64,000 bases of DNA, taken from NCBI GenBank assembly GCA_963169045.1, contig CAUJDF010000039.1, positions 186,001 to 250,000 of the forward strand. The letters run 5' to 3'. The DNA comes from Myxococcota bacterium (GTDB lineage Bacteria; Myxococcota_A; Bradymonadia; UBA7976; UBA1532). Below are positions 1,133 through 47,727 of this stretch, one piece after another. Position 1 is the first letter of the stretch. Each line of letters opens with the position of its first letter. Made by a program: the position numbers and the translations under genes. The notes under the pieces are model-generated. The model saw nothing but the letters and a program-made list of their open reading frames with translations. It made no database searches and was not told the DNA's origin.

Positions 1133-1146
1133 CCGCACCGCACCTG

Positions 1147-1602: not shown

Positions 1603-1616
1603 GCGCGTCCTCCTGG

Positions 1617-2843: not shown

Positions 2844-2849
2844 CCGCGC

Positions 2850-7363: not shown

Positions 7364-7387
7364 CCGGATTCGCGTCCCGTCAGGGGT

Positions 7388-8350
7388 TCACTTGATGTCG
7401 TATTCGAGGGTCACCGGCTGGCCGCGGCGGTCGATCTCGATGGGGACGTTGCCCGTCGTCTTCAGCTTCTCGAGGAGCTCGAGCGCCTTGTTGGGGCTGT
7501 CGATCTCCTCGCCGCTCACCGACTTGAGCACGTCGCCGGAGCGCACCCCGAGCTGGGAGAGCAGGGAGCCGGGCCGCACGCCGACGATCTTGAAGCCCTG
7601 GGGCTTGCCGTCGCGGTAGTGCGGGATCACGCGGGCCTGCCGCGTGAGCGTCTCCATGTTCTCGAGCTGCTCGTTGAGCATCTCGCGGTCGATCTCGTAG
7701 CGGTCCTTGCCGACCTTCTTGATGCCCTCTTCGATCTTCTTGGAGCTGTCGTTGGACGCGACGGGGGGCGGGCTGTACGAGCTCGAGGGCGTGTAGGAGG
7801 CGCCCTTGCCCTTCGGCTTGCCGAGCTCGACGCACTCGAACGAAGAGCCGCGGCTGAGAACGAGGCGGCTCCGGTAGATGCGGGCGATCGTGGCGTCGCC
7901 CACGGACTGGCCTTCGCGCACGACGCGCGACTGAGGGGTCTGGCCGTCGTCGACGACGGCCATCGACAGCGGCGACGGCGTGGCGGCCATCGTCGCGAGC
8001 AGCGACACGGGTGCGTCGCTCTCCTTGCACTCGTCGTCGGGGCCCGGCGGCTCGCCGGTGGCCACCGGCGTCTCCTCGATCTCGACGTCTTCCGTCGGCT
8101 CGTCGACCGGGGGCTCGGAGTTGAAGAGGTTACGCCGCTTGACGGACTCGGCGTTCGCCATCGCCGACGAGTCGTCGCGACCGCCGGCCTTGCGGGCCGC
8201 AGGCTCGGTGGAGGGCGCCGCCGGCGTCGTGCCGATCGAGGCGATCTCGCCGGCGACGACGTTGTTGACGACCCGCGCCGCGAGGTAGGCGAGGGCCGCC
8301 AGCGCGACGAGGTTCACCACCCAGAAGTACCGTTTGACCAGGTTCTCCAT
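7388..8350 (-). CDS. gspC: T2SS inner-membrane protein GspC with C-terminal PDZ domain
   Basis: An inner-membrane component that contacts the secretin (320 aa). There is one N-terminal transmembrane helix (YFWVVNLVALAALAYLAARVV), then a low-complexity linker. The homology region follows (KRRNLFNSEP; VGDATIARIYRSRLVLSRG). The C-terminus is a PDZ domain (IVGVRPGSLLSQLGVRSGDVLKSV), which many GspC proteins use for substrate specificity. It is the first gene of the gsp operon, 24 nt before gspD. GGGAG lies 5 nt before the ATG. A sigma-54-type promoter and two palindromic sites sit just upstream. Confidence 0.92.
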   Translation of the reverse strand: MENLVKRYFWVVNLVALAALAYLAARVVNNVVAGEIASIGTTPAAPSTEPAARKAGGRDDSSAMANAESVKRRNLFNSEPPVDEPTEDVEIEETPVATGEPPGPDDECKESDAPVSLLATMAATPSPLSMAVVDDGQTPQSRVVREGQSVGDATIARIYRSRLVLSRGSSFECVELGKPKGKGASYTPSSSYSPPPVASNDSSKKIEEGIKKVGKDRYEIDREMLNEQLENMETLTRQARVIPHYRDGKPQGFKIVGVRPGSLLSQLGVRSGDVLKSVSGEEIDSPNKALELLEKLKTTGNVPIEIDRRGQPVTLEYDIK

Positions 8351-20792: not shown

Positions 20793-22649
20793 ATGCGAAG
20801 GGCAGCGGTCCGCCGGGCGGCGCTGTGGGTGCCGCTGGTCCTGACGGCGTGCGGCGAGGGCGAAGGCGGGGACGACGGGGCCTCGGTCTCGATCGAGCTG
20901 TTCTCCGCCCACTTCCGCTCGGAGAACGCGGGGCCGACGCCGCTCGACCTCCGCTCCGACCCCTCCGGGACCGCTGGCGCCGAGGAGCTCGAGGTGGTGG
21001 TGGCGTCGCCCGATCCCGACGTCCAGCTCCGCACCGAGCTCTTCCCGCTCTTCGACGACGGGGGGGCCACCGGCAGTGGACGCCTCCCCGACCTCTCGCT
21101 CGACCAGCCCCAGCAGATCTTCGTCCGCGGCTTCCCCAAGGGCGGCAACGAGCCACGCCTCTTCGGGGCGAGCGACGTCTTCACCATCGGCGACGGCGAC
21201 CGCAGGCTCGTCGGCATCCAGATCGGGCGCGCCGACTGTGTCGGCCTCAACGCCGCGCCGGCCACGGTGACGGGTCCGCGGGGCTCGATCGACATGATCG
21301 CCGGACGCGTCGGCTCGTCGATGACCATGCTCCCCGACGGCCGCGTCCTCGTCATCGGTGGCGCGCGCATCGACGGCCAGGGTCAGGTCACCGAGCTCCT
21401 CGACACGATGGAGATCTACGACCCCAACCAGGGCGAGTTCTTCGAGGCCGAGGTGCGGCTGCTCGAGCCGCGCGCCCACCATACGGCGACGCACCTCGGC
21501 GACGGGCGCGTGCTCGTCTTCGGCGGCCAGACGACCGACACGACGAGCGGCATGCGGCGCGTGGCGCGCGAGGCGCTGGTCGTCGACCTCGGCGACGTCG
21601 ACGAGCCCGTGCGACGGGTGGCGGGCGTGCTGGGGGAGGGTCTCGAGCGCTACCAGCACGAGGCGACGATCATTCGCGCCAACACCGGCGAGACGAGCGT
21701 GCTCTTCACCGGCGGCCTCGGCCCCGACGATAAGCCGCAGGCGACGACCGTGCGCTTCTTCCCCGGCGAGACCGACGACCCCGCGCGAGGCGAGTTCGTG
21801 CCGCAGGGCCCGCTCTGCGACGCGCGCGCGCACCACTCGGCGACGGCGCTCGTCGGTCGTGCCGGCGAGCTGGCGGTCGTGGCCGGCGGCCTGCGCGCCC
21901 TGGAAGACGGCACGCTCGAGCCGCTGCGGAGCATCGAGGTCTTCAGCGTCAACCCGTCGCAGGAGTGCGTCTGCGCCGACCGGGCAAAGCCCCAGGGGCG
22001 CTTCGGCTGCTTCGTGAAGCCGGCGCGCATCCAGCTCGAGGAGGCGCGGTGGGGTCACCGCTCGCTGCGGGTCGATGACGACCGCCAGGTCCTCTTCGTC
22101 GGTGGCTACGCCAAGGCCGACCGGAGCGAGTTCGCGCGCGGGCTCGAGGCGCTCGACGCCCAGCTCCAGATGCACGGCCCCGACGAGATGGGATCGCTGC
22201 CCCGCGGCATCGGCGACTTCTCGGCGACCGCGATGCCGGTCGACTTCTTCTCCGACGGGCCCGCCGAGGCCTGCAACGCTCCGACGGCGGGCGGCGTGTG
22301 CCGGCCCGAGCACCAGGTGGTGATCACGGGCGGCCGGCGCGGCGACGCGCCCGTGGCCGAGGTGCTGCGCCTGGTGCCGCGCCGCGAGCGCGACGCGGAG
22401 ACCGGCGCGCTCGCGCTGCGCGGCTTCCGCGTCAAGGAGATCGAAGACGCGTGCGGCCTGAGCGAGCCCCGCTTCGGCCACCAGGCCGTGCGCCTTCGCA
22501 CCGGCACGCTGCTCCTCGGCGGCGGCATCATCGGCCCGAACAACAACCGCGCCGCCAGCCGCCGCGCCGAGATCTTCTTCCCGCTCGCCTCGAACGTCCG
22601 CGCGCTCTTCCCGAGTGAAGCCTCGCTGACCGCCCGACCCGTCCCCTGA
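20793..22649 (+). CDS. Kelch-like repeat lipoprotein
   Basis: A 618-aa protein with a short signal sequence ending in the lipobox LTAC (VPLVLTACGEG). About five repeats of the kelch/galactose-oxidase type follow, each with a GRVLV-x-GG-like core: DGRVLVIGGARIDG, DGRVLVFGGQTTD, ELAVVAGGLRA, DRQVLFVGGYAKA and TGTLLLGGGIIG. These should form a beta-propeller outside the cytoplasm, probably on the outer membrane. No enzymatic residues are evident. It is 8 nt downstream of the PEGA gene, so the two are likely co-transcribed. The start could also be one of the GTG codons at 20781 or 20787. Confidence 0.85.
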   Translation: MRRAAVRRAALWVPLVLTACGEGEGGDDGASVSIELFSAHFRSENAGPTPLDLRSDPSGTAGAEELEVVVASPDPDVQLRTELFPLFDDGGATGSGRLPDLSLDQPQQIFVRGFPKGGNEPRLFGASDVFTIGDGDRRLVGIQIGRADCVGLNAAPATVTGPRGSIDMIAGRVGSSMTMLPDGRVLVIGGARIDGQGQVTELLDTMEIYDPNQGEFFEAEVRLLEPRAHHTATHLGDGRVLVFGGQTTDTTSGMRRVAREALVVDLGDVDEPVRRVAGVLGEGLERYQHEATIIRANTGETSVLFTGGLGPDDKPQATTVRFFPGETDDPARGEFVPQGPLCDARAHHSATALVGRAGELAVVAGGLRALEDGTLEPLRSIEVFSVNPSQECVCADRAKPQGRFGCFVKPARIQLEEARWGHRSLRVDDDRQVLFVGGYAKADRSEFARGLEALDAQLQMHGPDEMGSLPRGIGDFSATAMPVDFFSDGPAEACNAPTAGGVCRPEHQVVITGGRRGDAPVAEVLRLVPRRERDAETGALALRGFRVKEIEDACGLSEPRFGHQAVRLRTGTLLLGGGIIGPNNNRAASRRAEIFFPLASNVRALFPSEASLTARPVP

Positions 22650-22726: not shown

Positions 22727-25700
22727 TTGAATCGTCCCTTCCTCCGGGCCGTCATCGGCCTGTCGATCCTGTTGATCGTGCCGGGCGCCGCCCGGGCGCT
22801 CGTCGACGGCGAACGCCACGCCCTCTATCGACAGCACCAGGTGTTCGGCGGCGCCATCGTCACCGGGAACACCCTGATGACAGCGTCGATCGCGGCGCCC
22901 GAGGTGAACAGCGGGCTCCTGCCACGCTCGGACGGCGACGTGCGCGACCTCCCGTTCGACGCCCAGCTCGAGGCGGCCTACCTGTTCTGGTCCGGCAGCA
23001 TGGTCAATGGGCCCGACCGCACCGCCGACCTCACCGCTGCCGACGGCACGACGTTCGACGACGTGCGCGCCGACCGCTGCGTGTCAGTGCCGAGCCTCGG
23101 CGGCTTCTTCTACTGCCGCGCCGACGTCACCGCGCGTCTGCGCGACCACCCCGGCGCGCAGCGTTTCAACGGCACCTATCGCGTCGGCGACGTGCAGGCG
23201 GAGCCAGGCTTCATCCGCCCCGATGGGGAGTGCGTGGAGCCCGGCGAGTGCCAGGCCAAGTACGCGGCCTGGAGCCTGGTGATCGTGTACTCGGCGCCTT
23301 CGGCGCGCACCCTGCGCGACGTCTTCGTGTACGACGGCTTTCGCCAGCTGGACGAGACGCCCGACAGCCCCGGCATCGACCAGTTCGACATCGCGGGTTT
23401 CGACTTCCCCGCGGACGGGCGCGCGACGCTGACCTACTTCGCGCTCGAAGGCGACGCGTTCCTCGGCGTGCCTCCGCAGGACACCGATCCGATCGAGACC
23501 TGCGACACCTGTTACGACTTCCTCGAGTTCTCGGGCACGAAGCTCGGGGACGCCACGAACCCGCCGAACAACCTGTTCAACAGCACATCGCCGCGCGGCT
23601 TCACGCTCGGCCTGGACCTCGACACGTTCGACGTCTCGCGTCTGCTCCGCGTCGGACAGCAACGCGCGCGGCTCCGCGCCGGCTCCGGCGACGGCGTGGT
23701 CGACATCCGTCGCCCGGATCCCGGCGGGGGCGGGGAGTCGTTCTTCCTCGGCTACGTGATGCTGGCCGTCGACCGGAACGCGCCGAACTTCCTGCGCGAC
23801 GGCACGCGCCTCACGGTCGTGCCCGACCAGGCGGCGCCGCGGGAGCGCGTCGTCATCACGCTGACCGTCGAGAACGAGGGCACGCTCGACGCGCGCAACG
23901 TCGTCGCCCGCCTGCCGCTGCCCGCAGGGCTCACCTACGTGGCCGACAGCCTGCGAGTGGACGGCGCCGACCCGGTTCAGGGTGCCGAGCAGCAGAATCC
24001 GCTCGCGGCCGGCCTGAACCTGGGCCTCATCCCGCACCAGGGGGACAACGACCGCGTCATCACGCTGCGGGCGACGCTGGTGCCTGACCTGCGCGCGGGG
24101 ACGCGCCTCGTCCTTCGAGGTGGCCTTCGCTACGACGGGCTGGCGATGGAGGTGCCCACCAACGAGGCCGTCCTCGTGGTGCTGGGCGCGCTCAACCTGG
24201 GACGGGTCACGAAAGAGGTCCTCGAGACCGACGGCGACGGTCGCTTCGCGCCGGGCGAGCTGATCCAGTACCTGATCACGATCCCCAATCCGAACGACCG
24301 CGACGTCCAGGACGTCCTGCTCACGGATCCGTTGCCGCCGTACGTGGATCTGGTGCGCGTCCTCACGACGACCGGCGTCGATCGCAGCGACGCCGCGCGC
24401 CGGCTGGTGCGCGTCGAGGACATGAGCGTGCCGGGCGGCGCCGGCGGCGCGGCGCGCGTGACCATCCTCGCGCGCATCCACGACGCTGCGCAGCTGGCGG
24501 CCGACGGCGTCGCGCCGGGCGCCATCAACGGCTTCGTCATCGCGAATCAGGCCACCGTCGAGGTCGCCGGCACGCGGATCGCCTCCGACGACCCGTCGAC
24601 CGCCGGGGCCGTCGACCCGACGCGCTTCCGGCTCGCGGCGCCGGTCGACATTGGCGGCCCCGGCACCCGAAAGACCGCCGTGGACGAGGACGGCGGGCTG
24701 CTCGAGCCCGGGGACCGCATCCGTTACACCATCCGCGTCGAGAACCGCGGGACGCAGGCCGCCGACGTCTCGATCAGCGACCCGCTGCCGGCCCGCACGG
24801 GCGACTGTCGCCTCGAGGGCGTCCACCCCGAGCTGGTCTGCGCCGGCGGGCGCCTGCGGGGCGTCGTCCGCGTCGGCGCCGGCGCGGCGGCGAGCGTCGT
24901 CTTCACCGTCGCCGTCGATGCCGACGCGCCCCACGGGACGGTCATCGAGAACGTGGCGACGCTCCGCGCGCTGCAGGACGCCGCCCAGCAGCCGCAGGTG
25001 CACAGCGAGCGCCTGCGCGTCACCTTCGCGCCCGCGCTCGGTGACGCCACGAAGACCGTCGAGGGCGCGCCGGGGGGGCTCGCGCAGCCCGGAGATCGCC
25101 TGCGCTATGTCATCCGCGTGCCCAACACGGGCAACCGCGCGGCGACGGGGGTGGTCGTCAGCGACCGCGTCCATCCGATCTTCGCGGACGTCGAGCCGGA
25201 GGACGGCGGCACGTTCGACGCCGACACGCGGCTCGTGACGTGGGTCGTGCCCGACGTGCCGCCGGGCGCCGAGGCGGTCGTCGCCTTCACGGCGCGCCTG
25301 CCCGCCGCCGTGCCGAACGGCACGGTCGTCGCCAACCAGGGCACGATCGTGGCCGTCGAGCTGCCGGAGGCGGTGCCCACCGACGATCCCGGCACCGGCG
25401 CGCGCGACGACGCGACGCGGGTCACGGTGCGGTCGGCGCCCCGCCTGCAGCTCACGAAGGCCGTCGAGCCCCGGCCGACGGCGCGCCCGGGCGATCCCGT
25501 CACCTATACGTTGGTGATCCGCAACACCGGCACCGACGTCGCGCGGGACGTCGTCGTCACCGACCCGTTGCCCGCCGACGTGTTCGCCGAGGTGGACGCG
25601 GGGCCGGGGCGCCGCGTCGACGAGGCCGTCGTGTTCGACCGCGCGGTCGTCCCGGCGCTCGCGGCGCTCGACGTCGGCGCGTCGGTGCGGCTCGTCGTGA

Positions 25701-28700
25701 ACGCCCGCCTCGTCCCGGTGCTCGAGAGCGGCCTCGTGGTCCGCAACCAGGCGCGCGCCGCCGCAGGCGTCGGGACCGAGGTCGTCAGCGACGACCCGGC
25801 CACGGCGGCCGCTGGCGATCCCACCGACCTCACGATCGAGTCGACGCCCGTCCTGACCCTCGCGAAGGAGGTCGTCGACCTGAACGGCGGCGAGGTGCAG
25901 CCCGGCGATCGACTGCGGTACCGCCTGACGATCGGCAACATCGGCGACGCGCCGGCGAACGGCGTCGTGATCGCCGATCCGGTCCCGCCCGGGCTCGTGG
26001 ACGTGTCCCCGTCGGACGGCGGCGTGCTGCAGGACGACGTCGTGCGCTGGGCGGTGGGCGTCGTGCGGCCGGGCGCGCCGCTCGCCGTCACGTTCGAGGC
26101 CACCGTCGACGCGCTCCCCGGCGCCGCCATCGCCAATCAGGCCACCGCGCGAGGCGAGGGGGCCGACGAGGTGCGCAGCGACGACCCGGGCACCCCGGTG
26201 GCCGGCGATCCGACCGTCGTGCGCGTCGTCCGCCGGCCTGATCTGTCCACCTCGACGAAGGCGGTCGCTCCGGCGGGCGAGGTGCGGCCCGGCGAGGTCG
26301 TCACCTGGACGATCGAGGTCGTCAACTCCGGCGCCGAGGCGGCGGCCGGGGTGGTCGTCACCGATGCGCTGCCCGCCGAGGTCGTCGGGGTCGCCGCCGA
26401 GGGCGCGGTGGCCGAGGGCGCCAATCTGCGCTGGAATCTCGGGGATCTGCCGGCCGGCGGCCGACGCGTGCTCGTCGTGACGGGGCGGGTCGCCCGGCCG
26501 CTGGCCGACGGCACCGTGATCCGCAACCAGGCGTTCGTCGTGGCGGAGGGCCTCGCCGCGGCGCCCACCGACGATCCGGCCACACCCGCCGCCGACGACG
26601 CGACAGTGCTCGTCGTGCGCTCGTCGCCGGACCTCTCGGCGAGCACGAAGTCGGTCGTCGACGCGAACGGCGCGCCGGTCCGGCCCGGTGACCTCCTGAC
26701 CTACGCGCTCGGCATCACCAACCGTGGCGGCGACGTCGCGCGCGAGGTCGTGGTGACCGACGTGGTCCCCCCCGCGCTCGTCGTCGAGGACGCCGGCGGC
26801 GCTGCGGTCCAGGGCGACACGCTCGTCTGGCGGGTCGGCGACCTGGCGCCGGACGCGGTGCGCGAGCTCGTGTTCACGGCGCGCGTGCGCATGCCGCTGG
26901 CGAACGGCACGATCGTCGACAACCAGGGCCGGCTCGCCGCCGCCAACCTCGGCGTTCCGGCCGTCACCGACGACCCGCGGACGCCGTTGCTGGGCGATCC
27001 CACCCGCGTCCAGGTGGTCAGCGCCGCCGATCTCTCCGGTGGCACCAAGACGGTCGAGGACCTGAACGGCGGGGACGTCCGGCCCGGCGACCGGTTGCGC
27101 TACACGATCACCGTGCGCAACGCCGGCGACGACGCGGCTCGGGGGCTCGTCGTCCGCGACCCGCTGCCCGAGGCGCTGCGCGATCCGCAGGCGCCGGGCG
27201 CCCGCGTCGAGGGCGGCGCGCTCGTCTGGGGCGCCGACGTCCTCGCGCCGGGCGCCTTGGCGACGTTCACCTTCGAGGCCACGGTTGGCGGGCCGCTGGC
27301 CGACGGGACGGTCGTCGCGAACCAGGCGCTGCTCACGGCGCGCGGCGTCGCGGCGCCGTTCCCGACCGACGATCCGGCCACCGCGGCGCCCTCGGATCCG
27401 ACGGCGGTGGTGGTGCGCGCCACGGCGCGGCCCACGCTCGCCAAGCGGGTCGAGGACGCGGACGGCCCGCCCTTCCGGCCCGGCGACGCCCTCGTCTACA
27501 CCCTCGAGGTCGGCAACGAGGGCGACGGCCTTGCCGAGGGGCTCGTCGTCGAAGATCCGCTGCCGGCGGGGCTCGTCGACGTCGTCGTGCCCGCCCCCGC
27601 CGTCGTCGAGGGCGGCGTCGTGCGCTGGCCCGTCCCGCCGGTCGCCCCCGGCGAGCCGCCGCGCACGCTGGCGATCCGCGCGCGCGTGGCCCCCGGCACC
27701 CCCGACGGCGCGGAGATCGCCAACCAGGCGCGGGCAGGCGACCAGCCCTCGGATGATCCATCGACGCCAGAACCCCTCGATCCGACGAGGATTTTCGTCG
27801 AGGACCGCCCCGATCTGCGCACGGCGACGAAGGCGGTCTCGGGCACGTTCGCGCCGGGCGGCGAGGTCGAGTACCTCATCGCCATCGAGAACGCCGGCAC
27901 GCGGCCCGCCGAGGACGTCTCCGTCGTCGACCCGATCCCCGCCGGCCTGATCGTGCTCGAGACGGTGCCCGCTGCCGTCGCCGCAGGGCGAGAGCTCTCG
28001 TGGGCCCTCGGGGCGCTCCCGCCGGGCGAGCGGCGCGAGCTCCGCGTGCGGGCGCGGGTGGCCGAGGACGTGGCCGACGGCACCCGCGTCGCCAATCAGG
28101 CGGTGGTGCTCGCTGCGGGTCTTCTGCCGGCGCCGACCGATGATCCCGCGACGCCGGCCGAGGACGACGCCACGGCCTTCGAGGTCGTCGCGCGACCGAT
28201 CCTCGTCGCCACGAAGACGGTGCAGGGGGACGGCGGCGACTTCCGGCCCGGCGAGGCGGTGACGTATACCTTGCGCATCGCCAACGAGGGGAACCGCCCG
28301 GCCGAGGCCGTCGAGGTCCTCGACCCGCTCGACGCGGCACTCGCGGGCGCCCAGGCCGACGGCGGGGTGGTGGCCGACGGCCAGGCCCGCTGGGTGGACC
28401 TCACGATCCCGCCGGGCGGCGCGATCGAGCTGTTCCTCCGGGCGCGCATCCGCGGGGACGTCGCCGACGGCGCCGAGGTCAGCAACCAGTTCGGCGCCCG
28501 CGCCGGCGCCGCCGGGCTGTTCGTGCGCAGCGACGACCCGACGACGCCGGAGCCCGAGGATCCGGTCGTCTTCACCGTGAGGACGCGCGCGCCGCTCGTG
28601 GCCGCGAAGACCGTCGAGGCGCTCGATCCCGCCGGCTTCCTGCCCGGCAGCGAGATCCTCTACACGATCACCCTCGTCAACGGCACCGACGCGCCCGTGG

Positions 28701-31700
28701 CGAACGTGACGGTCGCCGATCCGATCGACCGCGGGCGCCTCGACGACGTGCGCCCGGGCCAGGGCGGCCTCTTCGATCCGGGCCGCGCCGTCGTCGAGTG
28801 GACGCCCGAGCGCGCGCCGGCCCTCCGCGCCATCGCGCCGGGCGCGCGCGTCGACCTCCGCGTCCGCGCCCGCATCGCGCCGGCGCTGGCGCCGGGCGAC
28901 GTCGTCGCCAATCAGGCGCAGGTGGCGGTCCGCGGCGATCCGATGGTGGCGCGCACCGATGATCCGGCGACGCCGGAGGCGGCGGATCCCACGCGCTTCA
29001 CGGTGGTCGGCGGTCCGGCGCTCGACGTGCAGAAGGAGGTCGCCGCGCCCCTGAACGCGCCGATCGAGCCGGGCACCGCGGTCCGCTACCGGATTCGCGT
29101 GACGAATCGCGGCAGTGGTGTCGCTCGCGCGCCGGTCTTCGCCGATCCGCTGCCTGCCGAGGTGCGCTACCGCCCGGGCAGCACACGCCTCAACGGTGCC
29201 CCGGTGCCCGACGTGGGTGGCGGCCCACCCTTCGGACCGGGCATGGCGCTCGGCGGTGACCTCGCGCCGAACGGCGCCGCCGTCGTCGAGTTCGAGGTCG
29301 AAGTTCGGCCGGACGCCCCGCGCGGCCGCGCCGTGGCCAACCAGGGCTTCGTCACCGACGCCCTCGGCGCGACCGAGCCCACGGACGATCCGCTGACACC
29401 GATCGATGACGACCCGACGGTCTTCGTCGTCGGCGGGCAGCCGGACCTCACCGCCTTCGTCAAGCGCGCGGTGATCGTCGACGGCGACGGCAGCGGACGC
29501 GCCCGGATCGGCGACGTCGTCGAGTGGCGCCTCGACGTCACCAACGTCGGCGCCGGGGCGGCGCGGCGCGTCCGCATCGATGACGCCGTGCCTGCGCGCA
29601 CCTCCTTCGTGGCCGGCTCGCTGACGGTGGACGGCGCGCCGGTCACCGACGCCGACGACGGCGATGGCGGCGCGTTCCTCGGCGACGGCCTCCGCTTCGA
29701 GCTCGACGAGGTCGCGCCGCGCAGCACACGGCAGATCACGTTCCGCACCCGGGTGCGCGCCGGCCCGCGCGTCGAGAACCAGGCGCGGCTGACGGCGCTG
29801 GCGCTCCCCGTGGAGGCCAGCGACGACGACGGTGACGAGCGCAACGGCGACCAGCCGACGGTGGTGCTCGTCGGTGACGCGCTCGTCCGCGACCTGCGCC
29901 TCGACAAGACGGTCAACGACCCGACGGGCGCGCCGGCGCTCGCCGGCGAGACGCTGCGCTGGACGCTGAGCGCCCGCAACGAGGGCACCGTGGCGCTCAA
30001 CGACGTCGCCGTCGTCGACGACCTGGCGCCGGGTCTCGAGCTCGTCGAGGCGCGTAACGTGCCGCCGGGCGCCGCGCTGCGCTTCGAGCCGGCGCCGGCG
30101 GGCCGCTTCCAGAACGGCCGCGTCGTGGTGTCCGACCTGGCGATCGCCGCGCAGGCGCGCGTGGATCTCGAGCTGCTGCTGCGCGTCGACCCGCGACTGC
30201 CGGGACCGCGTCGTCTGTGCAACGTGGCCGACGCGACGGCCACAGGCGTGCCGGCCACGCGCTCGCCCGAGGTCTGCGTCGACGCCGAGGTGCGCTTCGG
30301 CGACCTGGCCGGCACGGCCTTCCAGGACCTCGATCGCGACGGCGTCTTCGGTGGCGCCTCGGACGAGGCCTTCGCGGGGATGCGCGTGGCGGTCTTCGCC
30401 GTCACCGACCCGGACGGCGCGCCCGTCGCCGAGGCGGAGACGGACGAGGCCGGTGTCTACCGCCTGCGCCGCCTCCTGCCCGGGCGCTACCGCGTGCGGG
30501 TCTTCAGCGCCACGGACGTGCTGCTGCTCACGATGGACGACGTCCCCGTCACGGCCGATCGCGAGTCGGTCCGCGACCTGGTCATCGACCCCTCGGGCCG
30601 CGTCTACGACAGCGCCGAAGGCACGCTGATCGACGGCGCCGAGGTGTTCATCTACCGCGATCTCGACTTGGACGAGGACCCGTTCGACGCGGAGACGCTC
30701 CGCCGCCGCGTGCTGGTGCCCGTGGACGAGCTGGAGGCACCGAGCCAGCAGGGCCAGCGCACGGCGCACGGCGGCCTCTACCACTTCGCGGTGCGCCGCC
30801 CGGGCCGCTACCTCGTCGAGGTCGTGCCGCCGGGGCCGAGCTTCGTCAGCCCGTCGCTCCTCGTGCCGCCGCGGCCGGGCGTGGCCTTCACCGACGACCC
30901 GGCCGGCCGCATCGTCGAGGACGACCTGCCGCGCACCGACCGCGACGCGGACCGCACGTACTTCCTCGCGTTCCAGCTCGACGGCCCCGAGGACGAGGTC
31001 AGCAACAACCACATCCCCATCGATCCGCTCTCGTCGCTGATCGACCTGCAGAAGAGCGCGTCCAGGCCCGAGGCGAGCGTCGGCGACGTCGTCACCTACA
31101 CGATCGACGTCGTCAACCGGAGCCCCGAGGACCTCGTCTTCGATCCGCGGACACAGAGCGGCGGCGTGTTCCTGCAGGACGTCATCCCCGCGGGTACGCG
31201 CTACGTGGCCGGCTCGTCGGTGCTCTTGCGGGTCGAGGCCGGCCGCGAGATCCCGCTCGAGTCGGCGGACCCGACGGGCGCGCGCATCCTGAAGTTCGGC
31301 GGCATCCGCCGCGAGGGCGGCCGCGACGTCTTCCGCCCGCTGGACCTGCACGCCGGCGAGGTCCTGCGCCTCAAGTACCAGCTCGTCGTCGGCGCCGACG
31401 CGCAGCCGAACCGGATCGTGAGCAATCGCGCGGTCTTGCTGGCCGACGGCAACGTGCCGGTGACCCGCGTCGCCGCCGCCGACCTGAAGATCGTGGCCGA
31501 CCCCGTCTTCGACCAGGGCCTGGTGCTCGGGAAGGTCTGGTGCGACGACGACGCCGACGGCGAACAGACCGAAGGCGAGCGCGGCCTGCCGGGCGTGCGC
31601 GTCTACATGGACCACGGCTACTTCGCGGTCACCGACGCCGCCGGCAAGTTCCACTTCAAGGACATCGATCCGGGGACGCACGCGCTCAAGATCGACGCGG

Positions 31701-34700
31701 ACACGCTGCTGCCCGGGGGCAAGCCGACGACCGACGAGACGCGCGTCGTCTACTTCACCCGCGGCCTGCCGGCAAAGGTCGGCTTCGGCGTGACCTGTCC
31801 GGCCGACGTGGTCTCGGGCGCCGTGCTCGAGCTCGGCGACGAGGGCTTGGCCGCCGCCCTCGAGGCGCTGCGGCGGCGATTCGTCCTCGTGACCGGCAAC
31901 ACGCAGGCGCTGCGACTGCGCGTGGGCGACACGGTGGCCGAGGCGCGCCCACCCGCCGTGACGCTCCTCGTGGACGGCGCAGCGAAAGCGTCGCCGGACC
32001 TTCCGCCCGGCGCCGGCGGTGTCGCCCGCGAGCTCTCGTTTGCGCCGACGCTGGCGCCGGACGCGCCGCGCGCCGGCTGGCGCCTCCGGGTCGGGCCGTT
32101 GGGCGGCGACGAGGCGGTGGTCGCCGAAGGCCGCGGGCCGCCGCCGGAGCGCATCGCCTGGAACCAGCGCGGTCCCGATGGCCGCACGATGCTCGAGCCG
32201 GGCCGCATCTATGCATATCGACTCGAGATCTTCGGCGAGCAGGGCGAGCTTGCCGGCAGCCCCGCCGGCGTCTTCGGCGTCGGGGCGAGCGGCGCCGCCG
32301 AGGGCGAGCTCGTCGCGTCGCTGCGCGGCGACCTGTTCGACGGGCGCGGGCGGCCCACCCGCACGCTGGTCCGCGAGGTGGAGCGGCTCGCGCCGAAGCT
32401 GCGCCAGCGCGAGGGGACGCTGGTCGTCGAGGCGCACGCCGCCGATGAGCCGGACGCCCTCGCCGTGACGCGACAGCGCGCCGAGGCCGCGCGCGCGGTG
32501 GTCGCCGAGCGGCTCGGCCGCCCCGTCGAGCAGATCGAGGCCGTGGGCGCCGGCAACCTGCGCCCGCTGGTGCCCAACCTCTCTGAGCGCAACCGCGACC
32601 GGAACCGCCGGGTCGAGCTGCGCCTGCGCCCGCCCGGCGCGCCGGCGGGCGAGCGGCACGTCGAGACGCCGGTGGAGCTGGCGCCGGTGGCCCGCGCGGG
32701 CCGCGAGGGCGCGGTCCCCGACGAGCGCGGCGACTTCGCGTTCGTCACCGAGATCCCCGAGGACGGCGTGGTCGAGGTGGCGGTGCGCGCGGCCGACGGC
32801 CGCCGGGCCGTCTTCCCGATCGGGGTGCGGCCGGGCTCGGTGCCGTCGCGGGGCGAGCCGCGCGACGTGGCGATCGGCGGGCGGCTGCCCGGCGAGCTCA
32901 CGCTCGGCGGCGCCCGGATCGCCGTGCCCGCGCTCGCCGCCCGGATCGAGGGCCCCACCGCCGTCCCCGCCGGAAAGCCCGCCGCGTTCACGCTCGGCGC
33001 CGAGGGGGAGGTGGCGGCCTGGCGGTTCGCCGTCGCCGCCGCGGACGGCGCGATCGCATTCTCGGAGGACGGCGCCGGCGCGCCGCCGACGGCGATCGCC
33101 TGGAACGACCCCCCCGCGGGCGCGTTCCGCACTGTGCTCACCGTGCGCGCGCCTTCGGGCGTCGTCGCCCAGAGCGCGCCGGGCACGCTACGCGTCGGCG
33201 AGGCCGACGCTTCGCCGGCCGCTGCCGCGCAGGGCGGCTGGTCGCTGCGCGTCGACGGCCAGCCGGTCACGGTCGGCGCCGAGGGCGACGTGTATGCGCG
33301 GCTCCGCGTGCGCGGCGACGAGGCGGTGGTCGTCGACGTCGGCCGCCCCGATGGCTCGCGGGTCGTCTTCTTCGCGCGTCCGCCCGAGCGGCCCGCCGCG
33401 CCGGGCGACGCGCCCGCGGGCGCGGTGTCCGACGATGAGCCCGCCCGCGACGGCGCCGCCCGCTCCGGGCCGCTCGTCGCCCAGGCGCCGCCGATCGACG
33501 AGGCATCGCCATACCGCCGCATCGATGACGCGCTCGCGCCTGCGCCGCCCTCCGGCGCGGCCCCGGCGTCGGCGCCCTACTTCCGGGTCGACGAGGCCCC
33601 GGCGCCCGGCGCCACGGCGCCGCCCGCGGACCTCCTCGCCGACCAGACCCGGTCGGACGCCGCGCCGGCCGGCGGGGCCGACGATCGCGCGGCGGCGCCG
33701 GACCGCCGCGTGGGCGAGCCCGCCAGCCGCGCGCCGCTCCCCGCTGCCCAGCGCGACGAGATGGCCCGCTTCGGCCGCGCGGAGCTCCTCCGCCTGCTGG
33801 CGCCCACAGCCGATCCGTCCGCCGACGCCGATGTCCCCGCGCGCAACCTCACCGTCGACCTGCCGCCCGCCGGCGCGCGGCTGTCCTCGCCGACGCTGCC
33901 CGTGCGCGGCCGCACCGCCCCCGGCAACAAGGTCTTCCTCAACGGCGCCGAGGTCGGCGTCGACGAGGAGGGCGCCTTCGCCGGCACCGCCTCGCTCCCG
34001 GAGGGCACCGGCGAGCTCGAGGTGGCCGCCGTCGATCCGCAGGGCAATCGCGGCGTGATCCGCCGCACATACGCCGTCGAGCCCTCGCAGTGGTTCCTGC
34101 TGGCCGTCGGCGAGGGCCTGGCGGGCGGCATCGGCAGCGAGCTCGACGGCGTGCGCCCCGACACCAGCGTCACCGTCGGCGACACCGTCTACCTGCATGG
34201 CCGCGCCGCCGCCTACCTGAAGGGCCGCGTCAGGGGAGCGGACCTGCTCGGCGGCCTCTTCGAGCGCTACGAGGTCACCGCCCACCTCGACACCGCCCGC
34301 CAGCGCGAGTTCGAGGCCCGCTTCCGCCAGCTGATCGACCCGGAGACCTTCTACCCGGTCTATGGCGACGCGTCCCAAGAGGTGAAGGACGCGAACACGA
34401 GCGGTCCGCTCTACGTCCTCGTCCGCGCCGACGCCAGCACCCTCACCGTCGGCAACTTCCGGACCGGCATGCGCGGCATCGAGCTCTTCCGCTACGACCG
34501 CACGCTCTACGGCGCCCAGGCGCACCTCGACGTGCGCACCGGCGAATTCCGCCATGATCTCGAGGCTTTCGCCGCGGACCTCGACGCGCCGGAGCGCCAC
34601 GCCTACGTCGAGCTGCGCGGCACCGGCGGATCGCTGTACTACCTGCGCCACGACTACGTCGTCGAAGGCTCGGAGCGCGTCTTCATCGTCGAGCGCGACC

Positions 34701-36799
34701 GGATCTCGGGCATCGAGCGCCGTCGCGTCCCGCTCGCCCGCGACGCCGACTACACGTTCCGCTACGACGAGGGCCGCCTGCTCCTCAAGACGCCGTTGTC
34801 GAGCGTCTCCCAGGACGGCTTCGGCATCGTCCCGGACCCCGTCCGGCGCGACGTCCTCGACGGGCACCCGCTCTTCCTCGCCGTCGAGTACGACCACCAG
34901 GACCCGCTGGCTTTCGGCGACGGCGCCTTCGGCGTCCACGCGCGCGAGACCTGGAACGACACCATCAGCGTCGGCGGCGGCTACATCCAGGAGACGCGCG
35001 CCGACGCCTCCGTCCCCACCTACAAGCTGTGGGGCGCCGAGCTCGGCCTGCGGCGCGGCCGCCGCAGCTACTTCGACGCGGAGCTCGCCCGCAGTCAGTC
35101 CACCAACGGCGACGCCTTCCTCAGCCACGACGGCGGCCTCAGCTTCGAACCGTTCAACGGCCGCCGCGACCTGGCGGCCCGCGGCTCGAGCTTCCTGCTC
35201 CGCGGCGGCGCCGAGCTCGACGACTTCACCGGAGACGGCACCCGGGATCGCTGGTTCACCGAAGGGTATTGGCAGTACCTCGCACCCGGCTTCTACTCGG
35301 GCGGCACCATCCAGGAGCAGGGCCTCGAGAAGTTCGGCCTCCTCTCGCGCTACCACGTCGACGAGCGCCACGCCCTGCACGTCCGCCACGACTCGGTGGT
35401 GTCCGACGAGCCGGCCACGCAGTCGCCGTCCGTCTTCCGCGCTTTCCGCCGCGACGTCACGCAGGCCGGCTACACCTACACGAACGGCGCGCTGAAGCTC
35501 GGCGCCGACTTCGCCCACACCGACCAGGACGAGGGCCTGGACGATCCCGCCTTCGTGACCGACACGGTGGCGGGCTCGGTCGAGTACCAGCTCGATCCCC
35601 GGTGGACGCTGCTCGCCGAGCAGGAGGCGATCGTGCGCGGCGACTCGCGCCTCCACGACTCGACGTCGGACCTGTTCACCAGCACCGCCGGCGTCCGCTT
35701 CGCGCCGACCCCCGACGTCCAGGTGGAGCTCACCGAGAGCCTCCGCTGGAACGGCGACAACGCCACCCAGCTCGGCATGCGCACCGAGATCGACGACCGC
35801 CACACGATCTACGTGCAGCAGCGGGTGGGGGCGCAGGACGACCGCACCGCGAGCACGACCGTCGTCGGCGGCGAGGAGCGCTTCGGCGAGGCGAAGTCCG
35901 GCCGCCTCTTCGGCGAGTACCAGCTCGAGGCCGCCGAGGAGGGACAGCGCAACCGCGCCGTCGTCGGCGTCGGCAAGCGCACGAAGCTGGTCGAGTCGCT
36001 CACCCTCGACGTGGCCTACGAGCGGAGCCAGGTGGTGGGCGACGCCCCCGGCGGCGAGTTCAGCCACGACACCGTTTCGCTCGGCTCGGAGTGGCTGGAC
36101 GGCGACCGCATCAAGATCGGCACCCGCTACGAGCTGCGCTACGAGGACAATGACGAAGAGGCCGCGCGCCGCGATCGCCTGCAGTTCCTGACCCTCAACG
36201 GCGCAAGCTGGAAGCTCACGCAGGACCTCACGCTGCTCCTGCGCTTCAACTACAGCCACACCCTCGACCTGGGCCTCGACGCCACCGAAGCCGAGCTCGT
36301 CGAGGGCAGCCTCGGCTTCGCCCTGCGGCCCGTCGCTTACGACTGGGTGGCGGTGATCGCGAAGTACACCAAGCGCTTCGAGCAGCGGCCGATCGACGTC
36401 GCCCTCGAGCTGCCGGTCCGCGAGGAGTCGGACGTCGTCACGCTCATCCCCATCCTCGAGCTGCCGCTGCGCCTGCAGCTGGTCGAGAAGCTCGCCTGGA
36501 AGCGCACCGCCGCGCGCGCCGACCAGCTGCCCACCGTCATCAGCCACACCACCCTGTGGATCAACCGCCTGAACTACCACCTCACCGACACGTGGGACGC
36601 CGGCGTCGAGTACCGCTTCCTCCGGGTCTCCCTCGCCGAGAACGTGAAGCACGGCGCGCTGCTCGAGCTGAACTACATCCTCCAGAAGAAGGTCCGGCTG
36701 GGCCTCGGCTACAACTTCACGCGCTTCAGCGACGACGAGTTCGCGCGGCTCGACGAGGACCACGGCGGGCCCTTCTTCCGCGTCGTCGCGCACTATTGA
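22727..36799 (+). CDS. Giant 4690-aa surface protein: DUF11-like repeats, CNA-B-like and OmpA-like domains, C-terminal outer-membrane barrel
   Basis: Starts at TTG; no earlier ATG or GTG fits. Residues 1-25 form a signal peptide (LSILLIVPGAARA). Residues 26-350 are a beta-rich domain (AYLFWSG motif). About 16 DUF11-like beta-sandwich repeats of roughly 115-150 residues fill 351-2520. Then come an SdrD-B/CNA-B-like fold (2523-2608), a related fold (2623-2768), one more DUF11-like repeat (2773-2925), a second SdrD-B-like fold (2925-3025) and an OmpA-like peptidoglycan-binding domain (3199-3305, ending NRDRNRRVEL). A Pro/Ala-rich linker (3545-3685) and an Ig-like fold (3707-3787) follow. From 3788 to the end, alternating polar/hydrophobic strands and a final ...RVVAHY suggest a beta-barrel read by the BAM machinery. 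No sortase motif is present. It probably forms a barrel-anchored surface fibre; ligand unknown. Confidence 0.85.
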   Translation: MNRPFLRAVIGLSILLIVPGAARALVDGERHALYRQHQVFGGAIVTGNTLMTASIAAPEVNSGLLPRSDGDVRDLPFDAQLEAAYLFWSGSMVNGPDRTADLTAADGTTFDDVRADRCVSVPSLGGFFYCRADVTARLRDHPGAQRFNGTYRVGDVQAEPGFIRPDGECVEPGECQAKYAAWSLVIVYSAPSARTLRDVFVYDGFRQLDETPDSPGIDQFDIAGFDFPADGRATLTYFALEGDAFLGVPPQDTDPIETCDTCYDFLEFSGTKLGDATNPPNNLFNSTSPRGFTLGLDLDTFDVSRLLRVGQQRARLRAGSGDGVVDIRRPDPGGGGESFFLGYVMLAVDRNAPNFLRDGTRLTVVPDQAAPRERVVITLTVENEGTLDARNVVARLPLPAGLTYVADSLRVDGADPVQGAEQQNPLAAGLNLGLIPHQGDNDRVITLRATLVPDLRAGTRLVLRGGLRYDGLAMEVPTNEAVLVVLGALNLGRVTKEVLETDGDGRFAPGELIQYLITIPNPNDRDVQDVLLTDPLPPYVDLVRVLTTTGVDRSDAARRLVRVEDMSVPGGAGGAARVTILARIHDAAQLAADGVAPGAINGFVIANQATVEVAGTRIASDDPSTAGAVDPTRFRLAAPVDIGGPGTRKTAVDEDGGLLEPGDRIRYTIRVENRGTQAADVSISDPLPARTGDCRLEGVHPELVCAGGRLRGVVRVGAGAAASVVFTVAVDADAPHGTVIENVATLRALQDAAQQPQVHSERLRVTFAPALGDATKTVEGAPGGLAQPGDRLRYVIRVPNTGNRAATGVVVSDRVHPIFADVEPEDGGTFDADTRLVTWVVPDVPPGAEAVVAFTARLPAAVPNGTVVANQGTIVAVELPEAVPTDDPGTGARDDATRVTVRSAPRLQLTKAVEPRPTARPGDPVTYTLVIRNTGTDVARDVVVTDPLPADVFAEVDAGPGRRVDEAVVFDRAVVPALAALDVGASVRLVVNARLVPVLESGLVVRNQARAAAGVGTEVVSDDPATAAAGDPTDLTIESTPVLTLAKEVVDLNGGEVQPGDRLRYRLTIGNIGDAPANGVVIADPVPPGLVDVSPSDGGVLQDDVVRWAVGVVRPGAPLAVTFEATVDALPGAAIANQATARGEGADEVRSDDPGTPVAGDPTVVRVVRRPDLSTSTKAVAPAGEVRPGEVVTWTIEVVNSGAEAAAGVVVTDALPAEVVGVAAEGAVAEGANLRWNLGDLPAGGRRVLVVTGRVARPLADGTVIRNQAFVVAEGLAAAPTDDPATPAADDATVLVVRSSPDLSASTKSVVDANGAPVRPGDLLTYALGITNRGGDVAREVVVTDVVPPALVVEDAGGAAVQGDTLVWRVGDLAPDAVRELVFTARVRMPLANGTIVDNQGRLAAANLGVPAVTDDPRTPLLGDPTRVQVVSAADLSGGTKTVEDLNGGDVRPGDRLRYTITVRNAGDDAARGLVVRDPLPEALRDPQAPGARVEGGALVWGADVLAPGALATFTFEATVGGPLADGTVVANQALLTARGVAAPFPTDDPATAAPSDPTAVVVRATARPTLAKRVEDADGPPFRPGDALVYTLEVGNEGDGLAEGLVVEDPLPAGLVDVVVPAPAVVEGGVVRWPVPPVAPGEPPRTLAIRARVAPGTPDGAEIANQARAGDQPSDDPSTPEPLDPTRIFVEDRPDLRTATKAVSGTFAPGGEVEYLIAIENAGTRPAEDVSVVDPIPAGLIVLETVPAAVAAGRELSWALGALPPGERRELRVRARVAEDVADGTRVANQAVVLAAGLLPAPTDDPATPAEDDATAFEVVARPILVATKTVQGDGGDFRPGEAVTYTLRIANEGNRPAEAVEVLDPLDAALAGAQADGGVVADGQARWVDLTIPPGGAIELFLRARIRGDVADGAEVSNQFGARAGAAGLFVRSDDPTTPEPEDPVVFTVRTRAPLVAAKTVEALDPAGFLPGSEILYTITLVNGTDAPVANVTVADPIDRGRLDDVRPGQGGLFDPGRAVVEWTPERAPALRAIAPGARVDLRVRARIAPALAPGDVVANQAQVAVRGDPMVARTDDPATPEAADPTRFTVVGGPALDVQKEVAAPLNAPIEPGTAVRYRIRVTNRGSGVARAPVFADPLPAEVRYRPGSTRLNGAPVPDVGGGPPFGPGMALGGDLAPNGAAVVEFEVEVRPDAPRGRAVANQGFVTDALGATEPTDDPLTPIDDDPTVFVVGGQPDLTAFVKRAVIVDGDGSGRARIGDVVEWRLDVTNVGAGAARRVRIDDAVPARTSFVAGSLTVDGAPVTDADDGDGGAFLGDGLRFELDEVAPRSTRQITFRTRVRAGPRVENQARLTALALPVEASDDDGDERNGDQPTVVLVGDALVRDLRLDKTVNDPTGAPALAGETLRWTLSARNEGTVALNDVAVVDDLAPGLELVEARNVPPGAALRFEPAPAGRFQNGRVVVSDLAIAAQARVDLELLLRVDPRLPGPRRLCNVADATATGVPATRSPEVCVDAEVRFGDLAGTAFQDLDRDGVFGGASDEAFAGMRVAVFAVTDPDGAPVAEAETDEAGVYRLRRLLPGRYRVRVFSATDVLLLTMDDVPVTADRESVRDLVIDPSGRVYDSAEGTLIDGAEVFIYRDLDLDEDPFDAETLRRRVLVPVDELEAPSQQGQRTAHGGLYHFAVRRPGRYLVEVVPPGPSFVSPSLLVPPRPGVAFTDDPAGRIVEDDLPRTDRDADRTYFLAFQLDGPEDEVSNNHIPIDPLSSLIDLQKSASRPEASVGDVVTYTIDVVNRSPEDLVFDPRTQSGGVFLQDVIPAGTRYVAGSSVLLRVEAGREIPLESADPTGARILKFGGIRREGGRDVFRPLDLHAGEVLRLKYQLVVGADAQPNRIVSNRAVLLADGNVPVTRVAAADLKIVADPVFDQGLVLGKVWCDDDADGEQTEGERGLPGVRVYMDHGYFAVTDAAGKFHFKDIDPGTHALKIDADTLLPGGKPTTDETRVVYFTRGLPAKVGFGVTCPADVVSGAVLELGDEGLAAALEALRRRFVLVTGNTQALRLRVGDTVAEARPPAVTLLVDGAAKASPDLPPGAGGVARELSFAPTLAPDAPRAGWRLRVGPLGGDEAVVAEGRGPPPERIAWNQRGPDGRTMLEPGRIYAYRLEIFGEQGELAGSPAGVFGVGASGAAEGELVASLRGDLFDGRGRPTRTLVREVERLAPKLRQREGTLVVEAHAADEPDALAVTRQRAEAARAVVAERLGRPVEQIEAVGAGNLRPLVPNLSERNRDRNRRVELRLRPPGAPAGERHVETPVELAPVARAGREGAVPDERGDFAFVTEIPEDGVVEVAVRAADGRRAVFPIGVRPGSVPSRGEPRDVAIGGRLPGELTLGGARIAVPALAARIEGPTAVPAGKPAAFTLGAEGEVAAWRFAVAAADGAIAFSEDGAGAPPTAIAWNDPPAGAFRTVLTVRAPSGVVAQSAPGTLRVGEADASPAAAAQGGWSLRVDGQPVTVGAEGDVYARLRVRGDEAVVVDVGRPDGSRVVFFARPPERPAAPGDAPAGAVSDDEPARDGAARSGPLVAQAPPIDEASPYRRIDDALAPAPPSGAAPASAPYFRVDEAPAPGATAPPADLLADQTRSDAAPAGGADDRAAAPDRRVGEPASRAPLPAAQRDEMARFGRAELLRLLAPTADPSADADVPARNLTVDLPPAGARLSSPTLPVRGRTAPGNKVFLNGAEVGVDEEGAFAGTASLPEGTGELEVAAVDPQGNRGVIRRTYAVEPSQWFLLAVGEGLAGGIGSELDGVRPDTSVTVGDTVYLHGRAAAYLKGRVRGADLLGGLFERYEVTAHLDTARQREFEARFRQLIDPETFYPVYGDASQEVKDANTSGPLYVLVRADASTLTVGNFRTGMRGIELFRYDRTLYGAQAHLDVRTGEFRHDLEAFAADLDAPERHAYVELRGTGGSLYYLRHDYVVEGSERVFIVERDRISGIERRRVPLARDADYTFRYDEGRLLLKTPLSSVSQDGFGIVPDPVRRDVLDGHPLFLAVEYDHQDPLAFGDGAFGVHARETWNDTISVGGGYIQETRADASVPTYKLWGAELGLRRGRRSYFDAELARSQSTNGDAFLSHDGGLSFEPFNGRRDLAARGSSFLLRGGAELDDFTGDGTRDRWFTEGYWQYLAPGFYSGGTIQEQGLEKFGLLSRYHVDERHALHVRHDSVVSDEPATQSPSVFRAFRRDVTQAGYTYTNGALKLGADFAHTDQDEGLDDPAFVTDTVAGSVEYQLDPRWTLLAEQEAIVRGDSRLHDSTSDLFTSTAGVRFAPTPDVQVELTESLRWNGDNATQLGMRTEIDDRHTIYVQQRVGAQDDRTASTTVVGGEERFGEAKSGRLFGEYQLEAAEEGQRNRAVVGVGKRTKLVESLTLDVAYERSQVVGDAPGGEFSHDTVSLGSEWLDGDRIKIGTRYELRYEDNDEEAARRDRLQFLTLNGASWKLTQDLTLLLRFNYSHTLDLGLDATEAELVEGSLGFALRPVAYDWVAVIAKYTKRFEQRPIDVALELPVREESDVVTLIPILELPLRLQLVEKLAWKRTAARADQLPTVISHTTLWINRLNYHLTDTWDAGVEYRFLRVSLAENVKHGALLELNYILQKKVRLGLGYNFTRFSDDEFARLDEDHGGPFFRVVAHY
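23776..30290 (+). repeat. Array of about 16 tandem DUF11-like coding repeats
   Basis: Units of about 390-455 bp encode K-x-V-x...PGD-x-V-x-Y-x-I-x-V-x-N-x-G at the start and a closing NQA...DDP-x-T-x4-D(P/A)-T linker. The closing linker is nearly invariant in at least twelve units (first near 24583, last near 29380) while unit interiors vary. A seventeenth unit is at 31045-31500. The array is in frame throughout. Copy number could vary between strains by unequal recombination. Confidence 0.8.
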
Positions 36800-36907: not shown

Positions 36908-37960
36908 GTGACGCCGCACGCGCACGTGCATGCCTGGCGGCTCAAGCTGGCCCTGGCGCTCATGACGGGCGTGGTCGCCGGGCAGTCGGCGCTGTGGTCG
37001 GCCTTCGGCGGCGGTCAGGCGACGGCGGCGCCGCCGTCGCCCCCGCAGTGCGGTCCGGGCTCGGGTGGGCCGACCTGCGGGCCGACGCCCGCCGACGCCG
37101 CCGTGGCCGCCGAGCTGGCCGCCTCGGCTGTCCCCACCGCCGGCACGCCGCCGACGCTCGCGCGAGCCGACGCCGACGGGGCGCCGGGCGACCGCGAGGT
37201 CGGCGAGCGCGACACGCCGCCGCGGCCCTTGCCGAAGGTGGCGCGCCGGCCGGCGCCGCCGGTCGATCCCGAGGACGAGCCGCCGCCGGGCCCGTCGCTC
37301 TCCCGCCAGGAGGTCGCGCGGCGCGCCCTCCAGTGGAGCGCCGCCATCCGCGGCGACGGCTATTACGGCGCGGGCCTCGTCGTCGACAAGCGCGGCTACG
37401 TCCTGACCTGCCACCACGTCGTCAAGGACATGAAGTCGATCTCCGTGTCGTTCCAGGACACGGGTGACCTGCCGGCGCGCCTCGTCGACTTCGACGAGGA
37501 CCTCGACCTCGCGCTGCTCGACGTCGGCGTCGAGCGTCCCGTGGTCGCGCCCTTCGCCAGCTTCCTCGGCGCGCGCATCGGCGACGAGGTGCTCTCGGTC
37601 GGCTCGCCGCGGCGCATGGACTTCACCGTCGCCTGGGGCATCGTGTCCTACGTCGGCCGCCGGATGGTGGGGCACTACTACCTGCAGACCGACCTGCCGA
37701 CGAACGGCGGCAACTCTGGCGGACCCGTGGTCAACGGCCGCGGCGAGGTCGTCGGCGTCATGAGCTTCAATCTGCGGCAGAGCCAGGGCCTCTCGTTCGC
37801 CACCCCGATCGACGTCGCGTACGAGCGCTTCGCGCGCCACCTCGGGCGCGACCGCTTCGACCTCGGCACTTTCCACCACTGGCTGCAGGCCCGCGCCGAC
37901 GGGCCGCGCCTCGAGGTCGACCGCCGCGGCGAGGTCGCCGACGCCGCCAAGGGCGACTGA
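36908..37960 (+). CDS. Membrane-anchored trypsin-like serine protease (S1C/DegP type, no PDZ)
   Basis: A 350-aa protein starting at GTG with GGGGAG 8 nt upstream. An N-terminal hydrophobic segment (LKLALALMTGVVAGQSALWS) targets it to the envelope. A Pro/Ala-rich linker of about 90 residues follows, then the protease domain. The full triad is visible: His170 (TCHHVV), Asp200 (DLDLALL) and Ser270 (GGNSGGPVV). Unlike DegP/HtrA it has no PDZ domain; it stops about 70 residues after the Ser. It begins 108 nt after the giant surface protein gene, in an AT-rich spacer. It may process or quality-control envelope proteins; the partner is not shown by sequence. Confidence 0.9.
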   Translation: MTPHAHVHAWRLKLALALMTGVVAGQSALWSAFGGGQATAAPPSPPQCGPGSGGPTCGPTPADAAVAAELAASAVPTAGTPPTLARADADGAPGDREVGERDTPPRPLPKVARRPAPPVDPEDEPPPGPSLSRQEVARRALQWSAAIRGDGYYGAGLVVDKRGYVLTCHHVVKDMKSISVSFQDTGDLPARLVDFDEDLDLALLDVGVERPVVAPFASFLGARIGDEVLSVGSPRRMDFTVAWGIVSYVGRRMVGHYYLQTDLPTNGGNSGGPVVNGRGEVVGVMSFNLRQSQGLSFATPIDVAYERFARHLGRDRFDLGTFHHWLQARADGPRLEVDRRGEVADAAKGD

Positions 37961-42147: not shown

Positions 42148-42253
42148 GGCGAGCTCCCGCGCGTGGGCCTTCGCGAATCGCGGGCATTGTAAGGCACCGC
42201 GCGCCCGCGCGGCACGGTGTTTCACGCGCTCGGGGATGTGCTACGTTCGCGGC

Positions 42254-42992: not shown

Positions 42993-47723
<4,731 letters not shown>

Positions 47724-47727
<4 letters not shown>

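Follow-up and report, generated by a model that had tools for sequence, protein, structure and literature searches.

The giant gene and its neighbourhood

The DNA analysed here, called the window below, is a stretch of 64,000 nucleotides with 73% GC, from a myxococcotal genome assembled into 109 contigs (9.0 Mb). Its central feature is a single open frame on the forward strand (22727-36799), which encodes 4,690 aa without an internal stop, with TTG as the inferred start codon. The GC values at the three codon positions (0.78/0.51/0.95) match those of the other genes in the window, indicating a real gene. Both the coordinates of this 14-kb gene and the domain order that a sequence-only reading had given were borne out by the frame and by Pfam and NCBIfam searches (Table 1). 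Elsewhere in the source genome, DUF11 was found at one site only, in a 720-aa frame, and the named relatives of the giant gene were mostly from Myxococcota MAGs. An antisense frame of 3,191 codons (23084-32659, reverse strand) lies opposite the DUF11 array; it is probably a GC-driven shadow of the repeats.

The gene directly upstream encodes a kelch-repeat lipoprotein. Kelch homologues were found directly 5' of the giant gene in other loci (L031/L045, L033, L035, L036 and L037) and nearby in L074, and the lipoprotein is a possible partner of the giant protein. A trypsin-like protease gene (36908-37960, forward) begins 108 nt 3' of the giant gene. It was rejected as a partner because none was seen beside the homologues in the relatives' loci. 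The window also encodes an eCIS_core (DUF4157-type) protein (39844-42225, reverse), whose homologues adjoin the giant gene in L031/L045, L030/L060, L038/L057, L043 and L047 and lie near it in L054. An 885-aa protein with Ig-like domains (45070-47727, forward) is kept at about 50% identity near the giant gene in L045, L047 and L057. A type II secretion operon (GspG, F, E, D and C-like; 470-8350, reverse) is located 14 kb upstream of the giant gene.

Table 1. Features of the giant gene and of its candidate partner, in window positions
Feature	Residues	Position	Strand	Basis
Kelch-repeat lipoprotein, LTAC lipobox, candidate partner		20793..22649	+	Kelch Pfam matches; start by inspection
Giant fibre-OmpA-barrel gene		22727..36799	+	Open frame, Pfam, TIGR01451, codon-position GC
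Signal peptide, LNRPFLRAVIGLSILLIVPGAARA	1-24	22727..22798	+	Read from translation; hydrophobic N-terminus conserved in homologues
N-terminal head	26-350	22802..23776	+	Conservation among homologues
Stalk, DUF11 repeats 1-16	351-2520	23777..30286	+	Pfam; Lys-Asp-Asn triad complete in repeats 2-16
CnaB/CarboxypepD_reg-like region	2521-2760	30287..31006	+	Pfam
DUF11 repeat 17, triad K2776/D2818/N2900	2761-2925	31007..31501	+	Pfam, triad positions
SdrD_B domain, last fold before OmpA	2926-3030	31502..31816	+	Pfam; separate fibre proteins end in a counterpart
OmpA-like domain	3191-3302	32297..32632	+	Pfam, NCBIfam, motif
Pro/Ala-rich linker	3511-3700	33257..33826	+	Sequence
Ig-like domain, Glucodextran_B-like, directly before barrel	3701-3785	33827..34081	+	Pfam
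Predicted outer-membrane beta-barrel, ~40 strands	3786-4690	34082..36796	+	AF2, strand alternation, Foldseek
84-residue barrel insertion, GTGGSLYYLR...EGSERV	3965-4048	34619..34870	+	DSSP of AF2 model; conserved in A1/A2

Head, stalk and OmpA-like domain

The N-terminal head was more conserved than the stalk, with 46-67% identity to eight homologues and six conserved cysteines (118, 130, 169, 175, 259 and 262); the L031 homologue does not have this domain. The head gave no match in Pfam and, at the thresholds used, none among PDB sequences, so that neither search revealed a known adhesive domain at this free end of the giant protein. The head may still be an adhesive domain of a new kind, and the word adhesin describes a presumed function. 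The natural reading of the conserved head is a tip domain that would bind something.

The stalk agrees with the roughly 17 DUF11-like repeats, followed by CNA-B-like folds, that had been read from the sequence. Pfam matched DUF11 in 17 stretches (E=1.7e-153), TIGR01451 of NCBIfam likewise in 17, and CnaB/SdrD_B folds come next (SdrD_B, E=5.5e-16; CarboxypepD_reg, E=1.2e-10). Tandem DUF11 repeats in a very long secreted protein, by which CLIPPER/DUF11 stalks are recognised, are thus present. Among PDB sequences, no relative of one stretch of the repeats was found at the thresholds used. In the solved DUF11 domain, an isopeptide bond joins Lys715 to Asn806, with Asp748 as presumed catalyst (PMC12617251). 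Judged by the spacing of that domain, the Lys-Asp-Asn triad was complete by position in 16 of the 17 repeats, the triads of three repeats being completed by reading the printed sequence, so the stalk is probably stiffened covalently by isopeptide bonds. Its length would be about 70 nm if it were straight, assuming about 4 nm for each of 17 repeats.

The OmpA-like domain proposed earlier gave a Pfam match at residues 3217-3294 (E=3.5e-4) of 21.3 bits, below the cut-off of 27.2. Homologues at the same place exceed the cut-off (39.4 bits in L083, 28.3 in L074 and 42.1 in Eleftheria), and the domain retains the VExHxxD...RxRA...NRRVEL pattern; on these grounds we upheld the assignment and take the domain to be weak but real. 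The Glucodextran_B match of the Ig-like domain (3707-3781) was slightly under the Pfam cut-off, and a similar Ig-like stretch precedes the barrel in systems where fibre and barrel are encoded separately.

The C-terminal barrel and its relatives

Beyond the linker and the Ig-like domain, the protein ends in about 905 residues that are all beta. The sequence-only reading had proposed a barrel of about 900 residues ending in Tyr. The Tyr end was confirmed in the sequence and the models gave a barrel-like fold; the start was corrected to residue 3786. No known Pfam family matched this region above the cut-off, and a profile of the barrel found no relative among PDB sequences at the thresholds used (hits at E 0.25 or worse). 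Across 38 other loci, the entire length of the barrel was conserved (21-64% identity). Structure prediction, suggested earlier as a check, gave a barrel-like model of about 40 strands and not a non-barrel fold: AF2 with 39 sequences returned an all-beta model (pLDDT 79.5, pTM 0.72), and the barrel of a homologue with 32% identity gave closely similar values (pLDDT 78.6, pTM 0.72). Counted from DSSP, both models show six strands, an inserted stretch of about 80 residues and 34 further strands; the first predicted strand (3-16) is non-alternating and was excluded from this count of 40. The strands are amphipathic and antiparallel, the turns alternate between short and longer, and both ends of the barrel lie on the short-turn, periplasmic side. 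The alternation of hydrophobic and polar residues in the strands was 2.80 vs 1.73 in permuted strands (z=8.0; z=8.0 also in the homologue). The insertion, at a turn placed on the periplasmic side, may be a plug-like domain.

The best Foldseek matches were the outer-membrane barrels SlpA, BtuB, LptD and SprA, with TM-scores of only 0.1-0.26, indicating that no known barrel has the same size and shape; ApoB100, an open lipoprotein sheet, was also among the matches. The models thus suggest an unusually wide, barrel-like outer-membrane domain with about 40 predicted strands and, should this number prove right, one of the largest membrane barrels made of a single chain.

Profile searches detected relatives of the barrel in 72 of the 284 Myxococcota genomes sampled. 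Among named MAGs they occurred in deltaproteobacterial lineages, Gammaproteobacteria, Gemmatimonadota and Planctomycetota, and the family extends to Pseudomonadota and Cyanobacteria and, weakly, to Deinococcus. Because the query was the barrel alone, the gene neighbourhood is an independent test of its link to the fibre. A stretch of 3 kb or more upstream of the barrel was available in 42 loci, many of them close relatives and hence not 42 independent events. In 41 of these, the barrel was either fused to DUF11 repeats (25 loci) or encoded directly behind a DUF11 gene (16 loci). The remaining one (L074) has SdrD_B and OmpA, with no DUF11 detected by HMMs. Fibre and barrel genes overlap by 4 nt in five alphaproteobacterial pairs (Nitratireductor, two Phyllobacterium, S. 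meliloti and Pelagibacterium), as well as in the Deinococcus and Synechococcus pairs. Loktanella, Synechococcus and Kovacikia share the pairing, as does Deinococcus ficus with a weak barrel match. Where the two are separate, the barrel has a signal peptide of its own and the fibre a C-terminal SdrD_B domain, behind which several fibres carry an OmpA-like stretch. The barrel tree calls for four or more switches between the fused and the split form; two of its split loci (L081 and L085) are MAG contigs and possibly reflect assembly breaks. Devosia was dropped as a clean example of a split pair since its fibre frame ends abnormally and the gene is probably broken, and it is still counted among the 16 split loci. 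In Devosia neptuniae (L086, 1-11571), the break seems to lie close to the end of the fibre frame, and a small frame that precedes the barrel gene contains OmpA-like remnants. In Paracoccus alcaliphilus (L105, 2386-10598), two transposases (IS110 and IS5) separate the barrel gene from remnants of DUF11, so that insertion sequences interrupt the fibre side.

The OmpA-like domain changes its place among these loci. In the giant protein it separates fibre and barrel within a single chain. In Eleftheria it opens the barrel protein and in Croceibacterium it closes the fibre; Vibrio has it in a lipoprotein gene after the barrel, Acinetobacter in a separate gene behind the fused fibre-barrel, and Synechococcus in the same chain after the barrel. 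Such shuffling of modules is most simply explained if they are parts of one complex. The gene arrangements therefore support a functional link between fibre, OmpA-like domain and barrel, as the sequence-only reading had held, and the split operons show it much more strongly than one sequence could.

Annotation of the plasmid records points elsewhere: the barrel genes are named 'TonB-dependent receptor', 'OmpA family protein' or 'hypothetical', and the genes before them 'DUF11' or 'SdrD B-like' (up to 6,458 aa). If the first of these names were right, the barrel would be a transporter or receptor and the DUF11 chain an accessory. The genes behind the Phyllobacterium 628 pair would suit that explanation, as they encode a siderophore-interacting protein, ExbB, ExbD and TonB (L094, 11850-15427). 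However, these genes were not seen in the other pairs, and no TonB plug or receptor domain was matched by Pfam in any family member scanned; we regard this explanation as very improbable.

Export and anchoring of the fibre

Our preferred reading is that the giant protein is a surface fibrillar adhesin with a dedicated outer-membrane barrel and a peptidoglycan anchor, which we consider fairly probable. The sequence-only interpretation, a single-protein machine that displays or translocates its own fibre, is supported in part. Sec would export the protein by its signal peptide, and the C-terminal 905 residues or so would insert into the outer membrane as a wide barrel, as modelled. The OmpA-like domain before it may tie the barrel to peptidoglycan, judging from its sequence. 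The DUF11 stalk, with up to 16 isopeptide bonds predicted from the triads, would project from the cell surface and carry the conserved head as its tip. Its role is likely to be adhesion or cell-cell contact.

The barrel is the only constant partner of the fibre, so that passage through it is the most economical route for the stalk to the surface. The stalk may then cross its own barrel in the manner of type V secretion, either led by the N-terminus or as a hairpin, through a pore that would be wide enough for folded Ig-like domains. Since many bacteria encode a fibre gene and then a barrel gene, the barrel appears to be the dedicated outer-membrane partner of the fibre, and export of the fibre through it is plausible. 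Because a type II secretion operon is close to the giant gene, another route has to be considered, in which the barrel only holds the C-terminus and the stalk surfaces by other means, for example type II secretion or BAM-assisted passage. A T2SS/pilus-like cluster adjoins the Eleftheria pair as well, and an OmpA-like domain is found in 22 of the 25 fused forms, in keeping with a mere anchor. However, the other plasmid pairs have no adjacent T2SS cluster in the ~20 kb read, and what stays constant is the adjacency to a dedicated barrel. A barrel serving as anchor only is, in our judgement, rather unlikely.

The DUF11 chain might instead stay inside the periplasm and link the barrel with the cell wall, much as a greatly elongated OmpA or the connector of Deinococcus SlpA would. 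The OmpA-like domain would suit such a tether, and SlpA, an outer-membrane barrel with a long periplasmic connector (PMC9388160), was among the best fold matches. Against it, stalk length varies widely across the family (0 to about 20 DUF11 per fibre stretch, and fibres of up to 6,458 aa) and would far exceed the periplasm, since some relatives should have stalks much longer than 70 nm, which could hardly stand upright there; DUF11/isopeptide stalks elsewhere belong to surface adhesins (PMC12617251); and the conserved part of the giant protein is the head, not the stalk. We consider a periplasmic tether improbable, though less so than a receptor.

Returning to the surface fibre, the data point to fibre and barrel as a widespread surface-fibre system, unnamed so far. 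A more far-reaching proposal, which we put forward only tentatively and think doubtful as yet, is a separate outer-membrane pathway for export and anchoring. Here a single-chain barrel of about 40 strands, wider than the 36-stranded SprA, would pass folded, isopeptide-locked Ig-like domains to the surface and keep the fibre attached while the OmpA-like domain holds it to the wall, in fused form or as a two- or three-gene operon in several phyla. If true, the fibre-barrel link would show how Gram-negative DUF11 fibres, a large class of stalks without a described outer-membrane route, are held in the outer membrane or exported through it. A widespread barrel family, listed in databases as 'TonB-dependent receptor' or 'hypothetical', would also gain a function. 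Thanks to the split operons, single gene deletions could put the idea to the test.

Comparison with known systems

Parts of this architecture are already published: the DUF11 stalk with an OmpA anchor (PMC12617251) and large outer-membrane barrels (PMC10994853, PMC9388160). No description of the fibre-barrel pairing was found in the literature covered, subscription journals and preprints being largely outside the search; the type 11 secretion literature (PMC12282271) was dropped as a link, as almost all its matches were to DUF1194, not DUF11. The nearest described fibre is that of the DUF11/CLIPPER adhesins, represented by B9T28_05395 of Acinetobacter silvestris, a fibrillar adhesin with a DUF11 stalk and an OmpA-like anchor (PMC12617251). 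They share with the giant protein a tandem DUF11 stalk with Lys-Asp-Asn triads and the OmpA-like anchor, but no outer-membrane barrel has been described for them: the words 'barrel', 'autotransporter' and 'outer membrane' are absent from the text of that paper, and the pairing is not mentioned.

Among large barrels, SprA, the T9SS translocon with 36 strands (PMC10994853), is likewise a very large single-chain outer-membrane barrel and was among the Foldseek matches. However, the similarity in fold is weak (TM-scores 0.14-0.24), and the SprA sequence family gave no Pfam match in the giant protein. Deinococcus SlpA, the best or near-best fold match, also joins a large outer-membrane barrel and a cell-wall-binding part in a single chain. 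It is a 30-stranded, cell-wall-linked barrel, and three 38-stranded barrels are predicted in D. radiodurans (PMC9388160). Unlike the giant protein, SlpA has an SLH domain and a coiled coil inside the periplasm and no DUF11 stalk.

Type V secretion, which comprises autotransporters, inverse autotransporters and two-partner secretion, shares with the barrel family a large N-terminal fibre and a C-terminal outer-membrane barrel, in one chain or in two adjacent genes, and both layouts occur in the family. The sequence-only reading had suggested an autotransporter-like architecture. As membership of that class this did not hold, as PF03797, the 12-strand autotransporter barrel, gave no match in the giant protein, and about 40 strands are predicted instead of 12 or 16. 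TpsB/POTRA had no Pfam match in the giant protein or in the split barrels. The fibre is Ig-like and not beta-helical, and an OmpA-like domain lies between fibre and barrel. Although it fails the tests for an autotransporter, two-partner secretion, a TonB-dependent receptor and SprA, the giant protein resembles type V secretion in outline.
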